A DNA stretch of 64,000 nucleotides from Secundilactobacillus hailunensis (lineage in GTDB: Bacteria; Bacillota; Bacilli; Lactobacillales; Lactobacillaceae). Position numbers and translations under genes: made by a program. Positions 23,486 through 63,806 of the stretch are shown piece by piece (the first letter of the stretch is position 1; each line of letters opens with the position of its first letter). Under the pieces are notes generated by a model. That model searched no databases. It saw only the letters and a list, made by a program, of their open reading frames with translations, and was not told where the DNA came from. Location of the stretch: assembly GCF_005405185.1 (NCBI RefSeq), contig NZ_BJDO01000008.1, forward strand, positions 1-64,000. Reading direction: 5' to 3'.

Positions 23486-23519
23486 ACAAAAAAACCACTG
23501 ATCGCAATGATCAGTGGTT
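23486..23519 (-). terminator. Terminator of the cold-shock gene
   Basis: Minus-strand AACCACTGATC and GATCAGTGGTT flank a 5-base loop and are followed by TTTTTTTG. Confidence 0.9.
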
Positions 23520-23537
23520 CCGTTGAGCTTAATTAAA

Positions 23538-23738
23538 TTAAGCAACAGTAACGTTAGCAGCTTGTGGGCCACGGTCGCCGTCTTCAACGTCTAAAGTTAC
23601 ATGTTGACCTTCTTCAAGGGTCTTGAAACCGTCAGCATTGATAGCTGAGAAATGTACGAATACATCTGAGCCGTTTTCAAGAGTGATAAAACCGTAACCT
23701 TTGTCAGCGTTGAACCATTTAACAGTACCTTGTTCCAT
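23538..23738 (-). CDS. cspA: Cold-shock protein, CspA family
   Basis: A 66-residue single-strand nucleic-acid-binding beta-barrel. RNP1 reads KGYGFITL and RNP2 reads VFVHFSAI; the N-terminus [14 protein letters not shown] is canonical. The start at 23738 follows GGAGG; ten extra upstream codons in frame have no binding site. Codons are highly biased, as expected of an abundant chaperone of RNA. The long A/T-rich leader upstream is typical of csp transcripts. Confidence 0.95.
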
Positions 23739-24047
23739 TAGAATGAAACCTCCATGCGCTATGCGCAAATAAATTTTGCATTTGAAACTTTTGAATAAGG
23801 AGCCATTCTAAAAAGAACGTTGTACCTTAATCCCGAAGCATAAATACATTACCAATACTATAACAGGTAATTTTGAGAAGTGCAACAACAAACTCCCACG
23901 AAGCAAAACTTTATTTTAAATGAGGCCTATCGCTCCAACTATAGGCAATACTTGCTACCAAGCCCTTTTAGTACTGCTAATCAGCACCATTCGGCCGTTG
24001 AACCATACTCATTTAATTATTTTTAGCTTAGTAATTAGTTATCAATT
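23739..24047. other. Intergenic region upstream of cspA
   Basis: About 300 bases containing the cspA 5' untranslated region and promoter zone. No supported gene, repeat or riboswitch was seen. Confidence 0.4.
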
Positions 24048-33336: not shown

Positions 33337-34521
33337 CTAAGCCTTATTGGCGACGAACGCCTTCATCCGTTTCATGGCTTCCGCAATATCATCATCAGAG
33401 GCCGCGTAAGAAAAGCGGATGTAGCCTTCACCACCGGCACCAAACGCACTGCCGGGGACGCCACCGACCTTGCCTTGTTCGGCTAGATCATAGGCAAACT
33501 TCACGTCATCTTGACCGTAACTGGCCGGAATCTTGACGAAGGCGTAGAACGCGCCAGATGGGGTGGCCATTGACAGGCCCATCTCATCCATCGACTTTTG
33601 GACAAAGTCACGCCGCTTTTGATAAATCTTACGCATGGCAACTGGGTCTTGCAGTCCATTATGCAACGCTTCTGCCGCAGCAGCCTGTGCTGGATTCGAC
33701 GTTGAAGTCACCATAAAGGCGTGCATCTTGGTGGCATTAGCAATTAGTTCAGCTGGTCCAGCCAGATAACCCATGCGATAACCGGTCATGGCGTGCGACT
33801 TAGATAGCCCGTTAACCAAAATGGTCCGTTCTGGAATCACGTTAGCAATGGAATAGTGCTCAACCCCATAGGTCAGTTCACTGTAGATCTCATCGGCAAT
33901 CACAAACAAATGGTGGTCCGCAATCACTTTAGCTAACCCTTCGATCATTGATTTCGGATACTCAACTCCGGTTGGGTTGCAAGGATAGTTCAGCAAAACA
34001 GCCTTTACTGAATCGCCCTCTTCGTCCAAAACTTTTTCCAGCCGCTCTGGTGTCAACACAAAGTCGCTGTTAGAAGTGTCAACTTGAACGGTCGTGGCGC
34101 CCGCAATCGTCACCAGTGGAAAGTACAGGGCAAATGCCGGTGTCGGAATGACCACCTTATCACCAGGATTTAAAATCGTGAACAGTGAAGCGCAAATGGC
34201 TTCAGTAGCACCCACCGTGGCAATGATCTCAGTTTTCGGATCGTAATCCAGGCCTTGGGATGCCATCAAGTAATGATGAATACCCTCCCGCAAATACATG
34301 GTTCCCTTTTGCGGCGAATAGTGGGAGTCGTTATCCTGAATACTCTTGATAGCGGCTGCCTTCACGTGTTCTGGCACGTTCATGTCCGGTTCACCTAGCG
34401 TTAACTTGATGATGCCTGGAATGGATGAGAACTTTTGGTCAACTTCCCGAATACCGGAAGGACCGACTTGATTCAATCGTTGATTGACTTGCTGGGTTAA
34501 ATCACTGGCTAATTGCGGCAA
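33337..34521 (-). CDS. patA: N-acetyl-LL-diaminopimelate aminotransferase (class I PLP)
   Basis: A 394-residue fold-type I aminotransferase. PLP contacts are visible: TLGEPDMNVP, ATVGATEAI, LNYPCNPTGVEY, VIADEIYSELTYG and the Schiff-base lysine in LVNGLSKSHAMTGYRMGYLAGP. Its position between dapB and asd in a complete acetyl-DAP operon assigns the role of transaminating N-acetyl-2-amino-6-oxopimelate. The start is TTG at 34521, with GGAG seven bases upstream. It is clearly related to the aminotransferase at 62120, which lies in a different context. Confidence 0.88.
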   Translation of the reverse strand: MPQLASDLTQQVNQRLNQVGPSGIREVDQKFSSIPGIIKLTLGEPDMNVPEHVKAAAIKSIQDNDSHYSPQKGTMYLREGIHHYLMASQGLDYDPKTEIIATVGATEAICASLFTILNPGDKVVIPTPAFALYFPLVTIAGATTVQVDTSNSDFVLTPERLEKVLDEEGDSVKAVLLNYPCNPTGVEYPKSMIEGLAKVIADHHLFVIADEIYSELTYGVEHYSIANVIPERTILVNGLSKSHAMTGYRMGYLAGPAELIANATKMHAFMVTSTSNPAQAAAAEALHNGLQDPVAMRKIYQKRRDFVQKSMDEMGLSMATPSGAFYAFVKIPASYGQDDVKFAYDLAEQGKVGGVPGSAFGAGGEGYIRFSYAASDDDIAEAMKRMKAFVANKA

Positions 34522-39626: not shown

Positions 39627-39836
39627 AAGTTTAATGACAAATTCATTATGGACTCATTTTCGATAGCGCTCCGCAGACGTTATATATCTGCGACAGTCCG
39701 TGATTTATTGGATCGCGTCCCAGCTAACTGACTGCTGTAACAGTGCAGCGCTTCGGCAACGTCCCTGTTAGGTCCGCCTCTTCGTCATTACAGTGACTAA
39801 GCGAACTGACTGGTGTCGGTTGCAACCTCTTCGATT
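39587..39836 (-). promoter_or_regulatory. Lysine riboswitch (L-box) with terminator
   Basis: Read on the minus strand, the leader shows conserved L-box blocks in order: AGAGGTTGC, GAGGCGGACC with AGGG, GCCGAAG, AGCTGGGACGC, GGACTGTCGC and finally GGAGCGCTATCG closing P1. The expression platform at 39587-39626 is a terminator (GGAG-CCTTTTGTTTA and complement, then TTTT). With lysine bound, transcription stops before lysA; without it the full operon is expressed. The aptamer occupies about 39661-39836. Confidence 0.95.
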
Positions 39837-39843
39837 TAATCAA

Positions 39844-61093: not shown

Positions 61094-62089
61094 TTATTCC
61101 GTTACTTGATGACGGCTGGTGCCACCATTTACGATGGTCAAAACGTCGTCTAAGGCGATTTCTACCATGTTAGCCACCGCAGCATCGGTATAGAACCCCA
61201 CGTGAGGACTGACGCTGACGTTTGGCATCTTGAGTAACTTTTCCAATGGCGGATTATCTAACTGTTTGTTGGACCAGTCTTGACTAAAGATCTGGCTGTC
61301 ACCTTCGATCGTATCGATCCCGGCACCGGCAATTTCACCGCTCTCCAGAGCATCTACCAGGTCATCGGCAACGACCACTGGACCACGGGAAGCGTTAATG
61401 AAGAACGCTGATGGCTTCATCATTTTAAAGACGTGCTTGTCGATCATGTGATGGGTTTCATCCGTTAATGGTGTGTGCATGGTCACAATATCGGCGGTCT
61501 TGTAGACCGTTTCGTGATCCGTATAGGTCAAGGTATCACCTAATTCTGGCCGGTGAATCGGGTCGGCAGCAATCACCGTAGAACCTAACGCTTTAAAAAT
61601 CCGGGCAACAGCACTACCAATTTTACCAGCACCAATAATGCCGATCGTCAAATTATGAATTTCATTGGCTTCGATGCCATCCCAAGTAAAGTCATGATGG
61701 GCTTCACGAGCTTGTGCGATACCTAAATGCCGAACTAACCGCATTACGTGCGCCAGTACCAGTTCACTGACTGAACGTGGTGAATAAGCCGGCACGTTAG
61801 TTACAACCAAGTGATTTTTAGCAGCTTCTTTCAGATCAACAATTTCATAACCCGTGATCCGTAACGTCAGCTGCTTAATACCAAACTCATGCAGCTGCTG
61901 GTAAATTTTTGGTGAATCCACTGGAATATGCTGCTGAATCACGATACCATCATAGCCCTTAGCTAACCCGACCGTTTTTTCAGTTAACGGAACATCGTTA
62001 GTATCAACTTGGACATCGGGATGGGCCTTCATCCAATCCTTAACAGCAACTAACTCATCTTCACGTGCATGATATAACAAAAACTTCAA
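61094..62089 (-). CDS. D-2-hydroxyacid dehydrogenase (D-lactate/hydroxyisocaproate type)
   Basis: A 331-residue NADH enzyme reducing 2-keto acids to D-2-hydroxy acids. TNVPAYSPRSVSEL is the D-LDH/HicDH signature; the Rossmann motif is IGIIGAGKIGSAVARIFKALG; catalytic residues are in INASRGPVVV (Arg), AGIDTIEGD (Glu) and VSPHVGFYTDAA (His). The position usually LRNVGVDN reads LRITGYEI, a difference close to the substrate pocket. The partnership with an aminotransferase and an aromatic leader suggests phenylpyruvate or hydroxyphenylpyruvate as substrate. I prefer TTG at 62089 (AAGGA seven bases before) to the GTG one codon earlier. Confidence 0.88.
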   Translation of the reverse strand: MKFLLYHAREDELVAVKDWMKAHPDVQVDTNDVPLTEKTVGLAKGYDGIVIQQHIPVDSPKIYQQLHEFGIKQLTLRITGYEIVDLKEAAKNHLVVTNVPAYSPRSVSELVLAHVMRLVRHLGIAQAREAHHDFTWDGIEANEIHNLTIGIIGAGKIGSAVARIFKALGSTVIAADPIHRPELGDTLTYTDHETVYKTADIVTMHTPLTDETHHMIDKHVFKMMKPSAFFINASRGPVVVADDLVDALESGEIAGAGIDTIEGDSQIFSQDWSNKQLDNPPLEKLLKMPNVSVSPHVGFYTDAAVANMVEIALDDVLTIVNGGTSRHQVTE

Positions 62090-62119
62090 CACAGGTTCCT
62101 TCTTCCTCGTTCATTTTAA

Positions 62120-63289
62120 TTAATGTGCATCAACAAATTTTTGAATCCGTGACACAGCCTTCTTTAAATCTTCGGTGCTGGCCGCGTAACTAATGCGAAC
62201 ATAACCTTCACCACCGGCACCAAATGAAGCACCAGGAATAACGGCTACTTTAGCTTCCTTAGCTAACTCGTAACAAAAGGCAACGCTATCTTGATTCAGG
62301 TTGGCTGGAATCTTAGCGAACAAGTAGAACGCGCCTTTAGGACTAGCACATTCAAACCCAGCTTCCTTTAACCCAGCTAACAATAGATCACGGCGCTGCT
62401 GATAGATTTTCCGCATGGCAACCCCATCGTCTGGACCATTTTTGAAGGCTTCTTCCGCGGCAGCCTGCGCGTTAGCCGTGGCCGACGTAATGGCGAACTG
62501 GTGAACTTTACCAATTTCTGTAATCACGTCAACGGGCCCGCATACCAGACCAATCCGCCAGCCGGTCATGGCGTGTGACTTGGACACGCCGTTTAACAGG
62601 ATAGTCTGCTCTGGCAATAGCTCACCCATGGAGACGTGACGTTCACCGTAAGTCAGTTCGGAATAAATTTCATCACTTAAAACAAAGATATCATACTGTT
62701 TTATGACATCCGCAATTGCCTGCAGATCTGACCGACTGTAAGTAACTCCGGTTGGGTTAGATGGGAAGTTCAAAACTACGGCCTTCACCGTGTCCTTGTT
62801 GGCTTCAATGGTTGCTTGTAATTTTTCAGGCGAGAGAATAAAACCATTATCGGAAGTATCTAGGAAAATGGGCTTAGCACCGTTCAGCAGTGTATCCGGA
62901 ATGTACAGTGGAAAAATCGGTGTGGGGATAATAACCGTATCGCCAGGATTCAACATGGCAGTCAATGATGAAAAAATCCCCTCGGTAGCACCAGTCGTGA
63001 CTAAAATCTGTGTTTCCGGATCGTAGGTCACGTTATATTTATCATGCAAGAATTTCGATGCTGCTTTACGGAGACCATCTGTCCCACGGGAATCCGTGTA
63101 ATGGCTTTCGTTATTTTCAATACTACGGATAGCAGCCTGCTTCACATGATCAGGCGTATTGAAATCTGGTTCACCGATGGTCAATTTCACCATATCGGGA
63201 ATCTGAGAAATTTCTTGGTTAAACTTCAAAATCGATGATGGCTGAATCTGCTTTAGTTCGTGTTTCATACTTTCTGACAATCGACTCAT
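62120..63289 (-). CDS. Class I aminotransferase, probably aromatic (AraT-like)
   Basis: A 389-residue PLP aminotransferase. Motifs: KLTIGEPDFNTPDHV, VTTGATEGIFSSL, LNFPSNPTGVTYSRSDL, FVLSDEIYSELTYG and the Schiff-base lysine in LNGVSKSHAMTGWRIGLVCGP. It resembles the patA product at 33337 along its length, but is followed by a D-2-hydroxyacid dehydrogenase and preceded by a leader peptide coding YYFWFFQY. I infer the transamination of Phe/Tyr/Trp or their keto acids. The ATG at 63289 follows AAGGAG by nine bases. Confidence 0.85.
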   Translation of the reverse strand: MSRLSESMKHELKQIQPSSILKFNQEISQIPDMVKLTIGEPDFNTPDHVKQAAIRSIENNESHYTDSRGTDGLRKAASKFLHDKYNVTYDPETQILVTTGATEGIFSSLTAMLNPGDTVIIPTPIFPLYIPDTLLNGAKPIFLDTSDNGFILSPEKLQATIEANKDTVKAVVLNFPSNPTGVTYSRSDLQAIADVIKQYDIFVLSDEIYSELTYGERHVSMGELLPEQTILLNGVSKSHAMTGWRIGLVCGPVDVITEIGKVHQFAITSATANAQAAAEEAFKNGPDDGVAMRKIYQQRRDLLLAGLKEAGFECASPKGAFYLFAKIPANLNQDSVAFCYELAKEAKVAVIPGASFGAGGEGYVRISYAASTEDLKKAVSRIQKFVDAH

Positions 63290-63314: not shown

Positions 63315-63346
63315 AAAAAGGCCCGTACAGTTTCTCACTGCACGGG
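63315..63346 (-). terminator. Attenuator terminator before the aminotransferase gene
   Basis: Minus-strand CCCGTGCAGT and ACTGTACGGG (one wobble) around GAGAA, then CCTTTTTA. Confidence 0.88.
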
Positions 63347-63435
63347 TCTCAAGGTTTATCCCCACACAGTCAGAATCTGATCTGTGTGGTCTTTAGCATT
63401 CAATCACAAAATGCTTTTGGCTCTTCACAGATCAG
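63315..63435 (-). promoter_or_regulatory. Aromatic-amino-acid attenuator before the aminotransferase gene
   Basis: Minus strand, in order of transcription: A 63435-63426 (CTGATCTGTG, includes the leader stop), C 63389-63377 (CCACACAGATCAG), D 63373-63361 (CTGACTGTGTGGG), E 63346-63337 (CCCGTGCAGT), F 63331-63322 (ACTGTACGGG), U5 tract. A:C is 10 perfect pairs; C:D is 12 pairs with a bulged A; D:E is 10 pairs including three wobbles; E:F is the terminator. A ribosome ending at the stop masks A, so C:D and E:F form. A ribosome stalled on Tyr/Phe/Trp codons frees A, so A:C and D:E form and transcription continues. Confidence 0.82.
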
Positions 63436-63494
63436 TACTGGAAAAACCAAAAGTAATATCGACTATTCAGTTGAGCAATTCTAATCATTTGCAT
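63432..63494 (-). CDS. Aromatic leader peptide
   Basis: ATG at 63494, nine bases after GAGAGG (63504-63509), opens a 20-codon ORF ending with TGA at 63432-63434. After MQMIRIAQLNSR it reads YYFWFFQY (codons at 63458-63435): Tyr, Tyr, Phe, Trp, Phe, Phe, Gln, Tyr. Seven of the last eight residues are aromatic, which is extremely unlikely by chance and matches the substrate class expected of the aminotransferase downstream. The stop overlaps attenuator segment A. A hairpin CTTTTGG/CCAAAAG (63453-63447 with 63420-63414) may hold A when the leader is not translated. Confidence 0.85.
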   Translation of the reverse strand: MQMIRIAQLNSRYYFWFFQY

Positions 63495-63527
63495 AATGAT
63501 GCGCCTCTCAGAATAGATGTTAGTTTT

Positions 63528-63556
63528 ATCATAGCATTTTAATGTAAGGTGCACAA
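63528..63556 (-). promoter_or_regulatory. Promoter of the aminotransferase operon
   Basis: TTGTGC and TATGAT are separated by 17 bases on the minus strand, 34 bases before the leader-peptide start. Confidence 0.65.
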
Positions 63557-63559
63557 ATC

Positions 63560-63683
63560 AAGGTGCGGAGGCAGGCGGTTAGAGAGCGACGTGTAAGACA
63601 GTAATGGTGAAAATCCCGAACTTGGATTTTGGCCATTACTGTCTTACATATAGCTCTCTGCCTGCTGGAGCCCGATTAGGCTA
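63560..63683 (+). repeat. Intact long-hairpin element (copy B)
   Basis: Outer stem CAGGC (63572-63576) with GCCTG (63660-63664) and AGAGAGC with GCTCTCT (63653-63659). Inner stem GTAAGACAGTAATGG (63593-63607) with its perfect complement at 63633-63647. Apical AAAATCC/GGATTTT. Its AAGGTGCGGAGG end is four bases from the -35 of the aminotransferase operon. Confidence 0.88.
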
Positions 63684-63806
63684 AGATGCGAAGACAGGCG
63701 CTTAAAGAGCGTAGTGGAAGCCAACTAAGGCAAAAATCCTGGGCTTGGATTTATGCCTTAGTTGGCTTCCATGCAGCTCTTTGCCTGTCTGAGCTCAATT
63801 CGGCTA
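63684..63806 (+). repeat. Intact long-hairpin element (copy C), tandem to copy B
   Basis: Outer stem ACAGGC (63694-63699) with GCCTGT (63783-63788) and AAAGAGC (63704-63710) with GCTCTTT (63776-63782). Inner stem TGGAAGCCAACTAAGGCA (63714-63731) with its perfect 18-base complement at 63754-63771. Apical AAATCC/GGATTT. Both outer and inner stems differ from copy B, but with matching changes on both arms. Confidence 0.88.

Follow-up and report, generated by a model that had tools for sequence, protein, structure and literature searches.

A putative aromatic leader-peptide attenuator upstream of an aminotransferase–dehydrogenase operon in Secundilactobacillus hailunensis, and related leaders across Lactobacillales

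The operon and its leader RNA

Near the end of a 64,000-nucleotide stretch of the Secundilactobacillus hailunensis genome (the whole of which we call the window), the minus strand encodes a class I aminotransferase followed by a D-2-hydroxyacid dehydrogenase, identities that an earlier note on this DNA had proposed and that domain matches now confirm (Table 1). The aminotransferase is 99% identical to its S. silagei counterpart; its solved relative is 4my5, a putative amino acid aminotransferase, and those of the dehydrogenase (4xkj, 2yq4 and 1dxy) are D-lactate or D-2-hydroxyacid dehydrogenases. We infer that the aminotransferase acts on aromatic amino acids. A second aminotransferase in the window (33337-34521, minus strand) is 51% identical to the first.

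Upstream of the operon lies a short, conserved ORF with a start codon and a putative ribosome-binding site, which would encode the leader peptide MQMIRIAQLNSRYYFWFFQY. As the earlier note had it, seven of the eight residues at the C-terminal end of this peptide, YYFWFFQY, are aromatic; among the 81,922 stop-free eight-residue stretches in the six frames of the window, no other has at least seven aromatics. Farther upstream, a TGCTATGAT box resembles by eye an extended -10 element, and the -10 region is conserved; a consensus scan of the window called no promoter on the minus strand, the -10 and -35 candidates picked by eye included. Repeat-like stretches with inverted halves can also be seen by eye upstream of the leader (about 63560-63800) and, in two other loci (L009 and L010), between attenuator and gene. 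Elsewhere in the window, Rfam models match a lysine riboswitch (39656-39838) and a cspA thermoregulator (23489-23783), both on the minus strand. The earlier note had compared the leader with a serine attenuator, for which a simple filter for leader ORFs with single-amino-acid runs returned nothing convincing.

The leader RNA has a predicted folding energy of -74.1 kcal/mol, whereas shuffled versions average -46.0 (z -6.8), and none of 200 shuffles did as well. Its helices are mutually exclusive and end in an intrinsic terminator. Two helices lie over the leader ORF or its start: P0 joins the ribosome-binding region to the QLNS codons, and P1 is formed by CTTTTGG with CCAAAAG. The 5′ arm of P1 consists of the last base of the Tyr14 codon plus the Phe15 and Trp16 codons. 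Beyond it, the chain of segments A to F described in the earlier note was recovered link by link: segment A, over the stop codon, is a perfect complement of C (10 pairs, duplex -16.7 kcal/mol), C:D forms the expected 12-pair hairpin, with one bulge (-17.3 kcal/mol), D pairs with E through 10 pairs, some of them G-U (duplex -15.8 kcal/mol), and the E:F hairpin (-19.3 kcal/mol) is followed by CCTTTTT and is the sole terminator-like site from a consensus scan.

Table 1. Positions in the window of the operon, the leader ORF and the elements of the leader RNA
Feature	Position	Strand	Basis
D-2-hydroxyacid dehydrogenase	61094..62092	-	PF00389, PF02826
Class I aminotransferase	62120..63289	-	PF00155; best NCBIfam PRK07309, 559.6 bits, cut-off 576
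U tract of terminator	63315..63319	-	sequence; consensus scan
Segment F ACTGTACGGG, terminator 3′ arm	63322..63331	-	terminator scan, alignment
Segment E CCCGTGCAGT, terminator 5′ arm	63337..63346	-	terminator scan, alignment
Segment D CTGACTGTGTGGG	63361..63373	-	
Segment C CCACACAGATCAG	63377..63389	-	
Small hairpin GCATTTTGTGATTGAATGC, -3.7 kcal/mol	63396..63414	-	
P1 3′ arm CCAAAAG	63414..63420	-	covariation
Segment A CTGATCTGTG, overlaps stop codon	63426..63435	-	sequence; A:C counts
Leader peptide ORF, stop codon included	63432..63494	-	sequence; conserved in relatives
Codons 13-20, YYFWFFQY	63435..63458	-	
P1 5′ arm CTTTTGG	63447..63453	-	covariation
P0 3′ arm, inside QLNS codons	63463..63475	-	fold
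Shine-Dalgarno-like GAGAGG of leader ORF	63504..63509	-	sequence
P0 5′ arm, over ribosome-binding region	63507..63518	-	fold
Possible -10 TATGAT, TGC before it	63528..63533	-	by eye; region conserved, 21-row alignment
Possible -35 TTGTGC, poor match	63551..63556	-	by eye

Orthologous leaders and the predicted effect of ribosome position

A scan of named genomes fetched 23 aminotransferase loci, 20 of which have an aromatic leader upstream of the gene; these come from Secundilactobacillus, Paucilactobacillus, Lentilactobacillus, Pediococcus parvulus, two Lacticaseibacillus species and a metagenome-assembled Lactobacillaceae. Two of the other three (L020 and L021) are paralogues of 48-49% identity without a leader, and the third, from S. 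silagei (L001), starts at a contig edge with no leader in view. The earlier note had staked its proposal on conservation of the aromatic run, and in these relatives the run is kept.

Covariation is seen in P1, C:D and E:F. In an alignment of 21 sequences, 96.2% of the cells of P1 plus C:D are paired and 6 pairs changed on both sides, a number reached by 5 of 500 shuffles. The paired fraction is likewise 96.2% for A:C, where 8 cells changed on both sides (0 of 500 shuffles); counted as pairs, just 2 did so (27/500) and there are 6 further pair types (119/500), and for that reason we call the A:C covariation modest. The CTATTC:GAATAG core of P0 is 90.1% paired in the same 21 sequences, with covariation not beyond that of the shuffles. 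Among 11 Secundilactobacillus sequences, E:F is 99.1% paired, with 2 pairs changed on both sides (9/500 shuffles), and D:E is 97.2% paired, with no pair changed on both sides. The sequences are related and not independent, so the corresponding P values are nominal.

We then folded the RNA 3′ of a ribosome mask up to the terminator loop, counting pairing of E with upstream sequence as antitermination. For the window leader, the computed value is 0.51 with the ribosome at codon 4, as it is with no ribosome, 0.21-0.31 at codons 5-11, 0.59 at codon 12, 0.79 at codons 13-17, 0.54 at codon 18 and 0.21 from codon 19 to the stop codon. The peak covers Y13, Y14, F15, W16 and F17, a geometry that fits the earlier suggestion that Phe, Tyr and Trp are integrated in a single signal.

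Judged from these sequence features, the window leader is very likely a ribosome-mediated transcription attenuator that senses a shortage of charged Phe, Tyr and Trp tRNAs. A leading ribosome stalled on codons 13-17 would cover the 5′ arm of P1 and leave A free to pair with C; D, released by that pairing, would then pair with E, and the resulting D:E helix would block the E:F terminator and allow transcription of the aminotransferase and dehydrogenase genes. When aromatics are plentiful, a ribosome at the stop codon would instead cover A, C:D and E:F would form, and transcription would stop, presumably by termination at E:F. With no ribosome, P1 would hold part of A, giving the intermediate prediction. 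The leader is expected to respond to aromatic amino acids, and probably to sense all three.

Related leaders in the order Lactobacillales

A covariance model built on the leader core (R1), with a match threshold of E 0.01 or better, has matches at 87 places in Lactobacillaceae, spread over 82 of the 397 genomes and 14 of the 40 genera searched. In a draw from the order it matches 30 of 395 genomes, 17 of these in four other families, and in a draw from the class, under strict filters, only the S. hailunensis genome itself of 398; the strict filters used in these large searches make the family counts lower bounds. We read all 104 places (87 plus 17). All but one have an aromatic-rich leader with at least four aromatics in six residues, the exception (L090) having the degenerate run AFSFAF. 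The S. hailunensis genome has a second copy (L121), a weak match (E 0.31) that we read by hand, in which MNLKMKALNRQLNRFSYYWSM stands before aroE; a further match in that genome (L122, E 8.1, no leader) was left out of all tallies. Four aminotransferase leaders missed by the motif filter and read by hand (L112, L115, L116 and L118) stand outside the 99 unique leaders considered below.

The window leader has its run of aromatic codons, and behind the leaders of the family are aromatic genes: the gene is visible for 97 of the 99 unique leaders and belongs to a small set of aromatic genes or genes for proteins that co-occur with them. The aminotransferase group accounts for 58 leaders, 57 of them seen and one (L035, whose gene is out of view at a contig end) counted by likeness to the window. 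Behind the others are a TrpX-like ABC transporter (8), an unannotated protein of about 185 residues (8, with DAHP synthase next in six), transketolase followed by AroE and DAHP synthase (7), AroE (7), a PF13303 membrane protein (6), DAHP synthase (3) and the dehydrogenase (1); the last leader (L132) also has its gene out of view at a contig end, and we placed it beside L133 and L136, whose leaders resemble it. Functions were tested in representatives and assigned to the remainder by similarity clusters. Those matched in representatives were AroE, transketolase, DAHP synthase, AroB, AroA, chorismate synthase and PF13303; the TrpX-like protein scored 332 bits against a cut-off of 390. In the stretches read for 21 aminotransferase loci among the weaker matches, 16 have the dehydrogenase gene and 15 a PF13303 gene.

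Two further features of these operons caught our attention. A conserved protein of about 185 residues beginning MIIHTLGP.. is encoded between leader and DAHP synthase gene in L125, L128, L133, L135, L136, L137 and L139, and the L128 copy has zero Pfam or NCBIfam matches. Transketolase leads the aromatic operon in L075, L078, L082, L088, L089, L093 and L097 (L075 tested, the others by similarity), where it presumably supplies erythrose 4-phosphate.

The presence of Trp in the six-residue core differs between these groups: it is found in 52 of 58 aminotransferase leaders and in all 14 transketolase or AroE leaders, and in none of the 8 transporter leaders or the 8 YYFSFF leaders (seven before the unannotated protein, plus L132). 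At the RNA level, all seven pairs of P1 are kept in 87 of the 99 unique leaders, versus 29% for shuffled arms; the 12 others include five leaders with no anchor codon set (L080, L087, L090, L091 and L104). The exact P1 sets are CTTTTGG/CCAAAAG, CTATTGG/CCAATAG, CTTTAGC/GCTAAAG and CTTCTGG/CCAGAAG, and the 3′ arm, which is outside the ORF, tracks the codon changes, as in CTTTAGC, where the Trp codon has changed to Ser and the partner is GCTAAAG. In a motif survey of the unique leaders, the A motif was located in 44. It starts 11-13 bases past the Trp codon in 43 of these, the remaining one being a false match, whereas the stop codon lies 3, 4 or 6 codons past Trp. This constant Trp-to-A spacing despite a varying stop is as predicted if a stalled ribosome acts as the ruler.

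The folding test was extended to 121 leaders, of which L015, L063, L064 and L087 had no automatically found terminator; counting identical sequences once left 96, and these are related, so that the trials are not independent. Computed antitermination for the stall exceeds that for the stop by over 0.1 in 54 of the 96, the reverse is true of 4 (L098, L102, L105 and L134), and 38 show neither, among them the second S. hailunensis copy; of 768 shuffles, 25% favour the stall and 19% the stop. When the stall value is averaged over four codons of the run, 54 leaders favour the stall and 5 the stop; on that measure 37 leaders have low values both ahead of the run and at the stop codon, the reverse profile occurring once. 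Sequestration of D before E is made was uninformative (24 of 86 for, 10 against, median 0.01; shuffles 14% and 19%).

Some leaders, for example L075 before transketolase and L081 before AroE, have two extra segments between the stop codon and C, which we picked by eye in these two only. The duplexes 1:2, 2:3, 3:C and C:D have energies of -19.0, -17.1, -10.5 and -19.2 in L075 and of -16.2, -14.4, -11.5 and -14.6 in L081. Adding two segments to the chain leaves its polarity unchanged.

The leader and terminator of L035, presumably from S. silagei, run into sequence beginning GGTTCT, and upstream of the aminotransferase gene in S. silagei L001 lies the end of a repeated element (L001:1-140), 118 bases of which have 7 matches in that genome, two of them at the edges of contig C1. 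TCTTTTAT is common to the L035 and L001 junctions, as an 8-base target duplication would be; a plasmid search with the L001 element end gave no match. Such an insertion would part the operon from its attenuator, and the window has none.

Known systems, alternatives and wider reading

Control of amino-acid genes in low-GC Gram-positive bacteria is usually attributed to T-boxes and proteins, and few leader-peptide attenuators are known from them. T-box leaders also control a terminator and respond to tRNA charging, but the T-box model RF00230 has no match in the window, none in the leader at E 10 and none in contig C8; elsewhere in the same genome there are 40 T-box candidates, 11 of them above the cut-off. 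Against Rfam as a whole, the window leader has no match at gathering score and six chance-level matches below it. In layout it resembles the enterobacterial his, trp and pheA attenuators, in which a leader peptide with many residues of the amino acid under control is combined with alternative helices and an intrinsic terminator, and the long chain is as in his. The likeness is one of layout, and the present family differs in having three aromatics in one run, in belonging to Lactobacillales and in a chain length that varies between members.

Closer in taxonomy, the leucine-rich attenuator peptide of Staphylococcus aureus ilv-leu has mutant support, and B. subtilis has a T-box in the same place, according to PMC5794164; from that description this is leader-peptide attenuation in a Firmicute too, but for branched-chain amino acids. 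In 2010, PMC2965389 presented leader peptides as new to Firmicutes in connection with the histidine genes of bacilli; that system too is a predicted one, but it concerns histidine and hisZ/hisS* genes. As described in PMC8632094, uORFC-13-1, a predicted uORF attenuator found in 24 sequences with at least one Phe codon, precedes aroF in Acholeplasma, and like some of our leaders it stands before a DAHP synthase gene. In the open-access literature that we searched, we found no report of an aromatic leader attenuator in Lactobacillales. The mechanism is of a known kind; novelty seems to lie in the family, in the regulon it serves and in its variable chain.

A different reading of the leader, which we consider unlikely, is that it encodes an arrest peptide whose nascent chain (QLN...YYFWFF) halts the ribosome when a free aromatic amino acid is abundant. 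TnaC stops the ribosome in this way in response to free Trp, and an aminotransferase and a D-hydroxyacid dehydrogenase can form a catabolic pair, so that a partly catabolic operon would be induced by excess. The folding result is compatible with a stall of any origin within the run, and a loose QLN-like pattern occurs in 89 of the 99 unique leaders, more than codon counting alone needs, although P0 may account for part of that conservation. The same leader family, however, precedes biosynthetic operons of the shikimate pathway, where induction by excess makes little sense, and in several branches the Trp position is occupied by Ser, Arg, Gly, Leu or Tyr.

Attenuation, our preferred reading, also has to be weighed against the annotation of one branch as "Enterococcus sRNA 2410", which implies that the leader RNA acts mainly in trans as a small RNA. 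The corresponding Rfam entry, RF02863, has no match in the window; above the gathering threshold it matches 3 of 20 scanned loci (L102, L106 and L130), all leaders of the TrpX-like ABC transporter, and PMC5593968 describes the 195-nt E. faecium RNA as a discrete transcript, detected by RNA-seq and visible on Northern blots as two transcripts. Two enterococcal transcriptome papers (PMC3166299 and PMC7724050) yielded nothing on this RNA. Although the entry is described as an sRNA, its structure line takes in P1 and its match in L130 starts within the leader ORF; the elements contain a leader ORF and alternative helices and stand directly before aromatic genes in the same direction, and we regard a mainly trans-acting role as very improbable. 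Since one branch of the family matches its Rfam entry, sRNA 2410 is probably the terminated leader of such an attenuator. Least credible of all is a plain partial terminator next to a chance ORF. E:F is strong by itself, but the alternative helices are conserved and covary, and conservation of the peptide argues against a chance ORF.

Taking the attenuator reading together with the genes behind the leaders, we think it fairly probable that the aromatic leader-peptide attenuators of Lactobacillales form one homologous family, which controls a regulon for aromatic amino acids across the order. That regulon would comprise the shikimate operons (some of them led by transketolase), the aminotransferase/D-hydroxyacid dehydrogenase operon, the PF13303 protein and the TrpX-like transporter. 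The orphan PF13303 membrane protein would be a transporter for aromatics or aryl-keto acids, and the TrpX-like ABC transporter would carry Phe or Tyr, because its leaders have no Trp codon. On the same joint reading, the helix chain can grow by two segments with its polarity kept, the Trp codon would be kept or lost with the pathway served, and the annotated Enterococcus sRNA would be a terminated leader of the family.

A genome with 40 T-box candidates appears to use leader peptides for its aromatic genes, and the attenuator family reaches five families of the order. The aminotransferase/dehydrogenase pair may make aryl-lactic acids in fermented foods. If the joint reading is true, the leaders would label the specificity of unassigned transporters and explain one annotated small RNA, and the family would be a naturally occurring set of attenuators, some with short and others with long helix chains, on which the rules of alternative folding could be tested.
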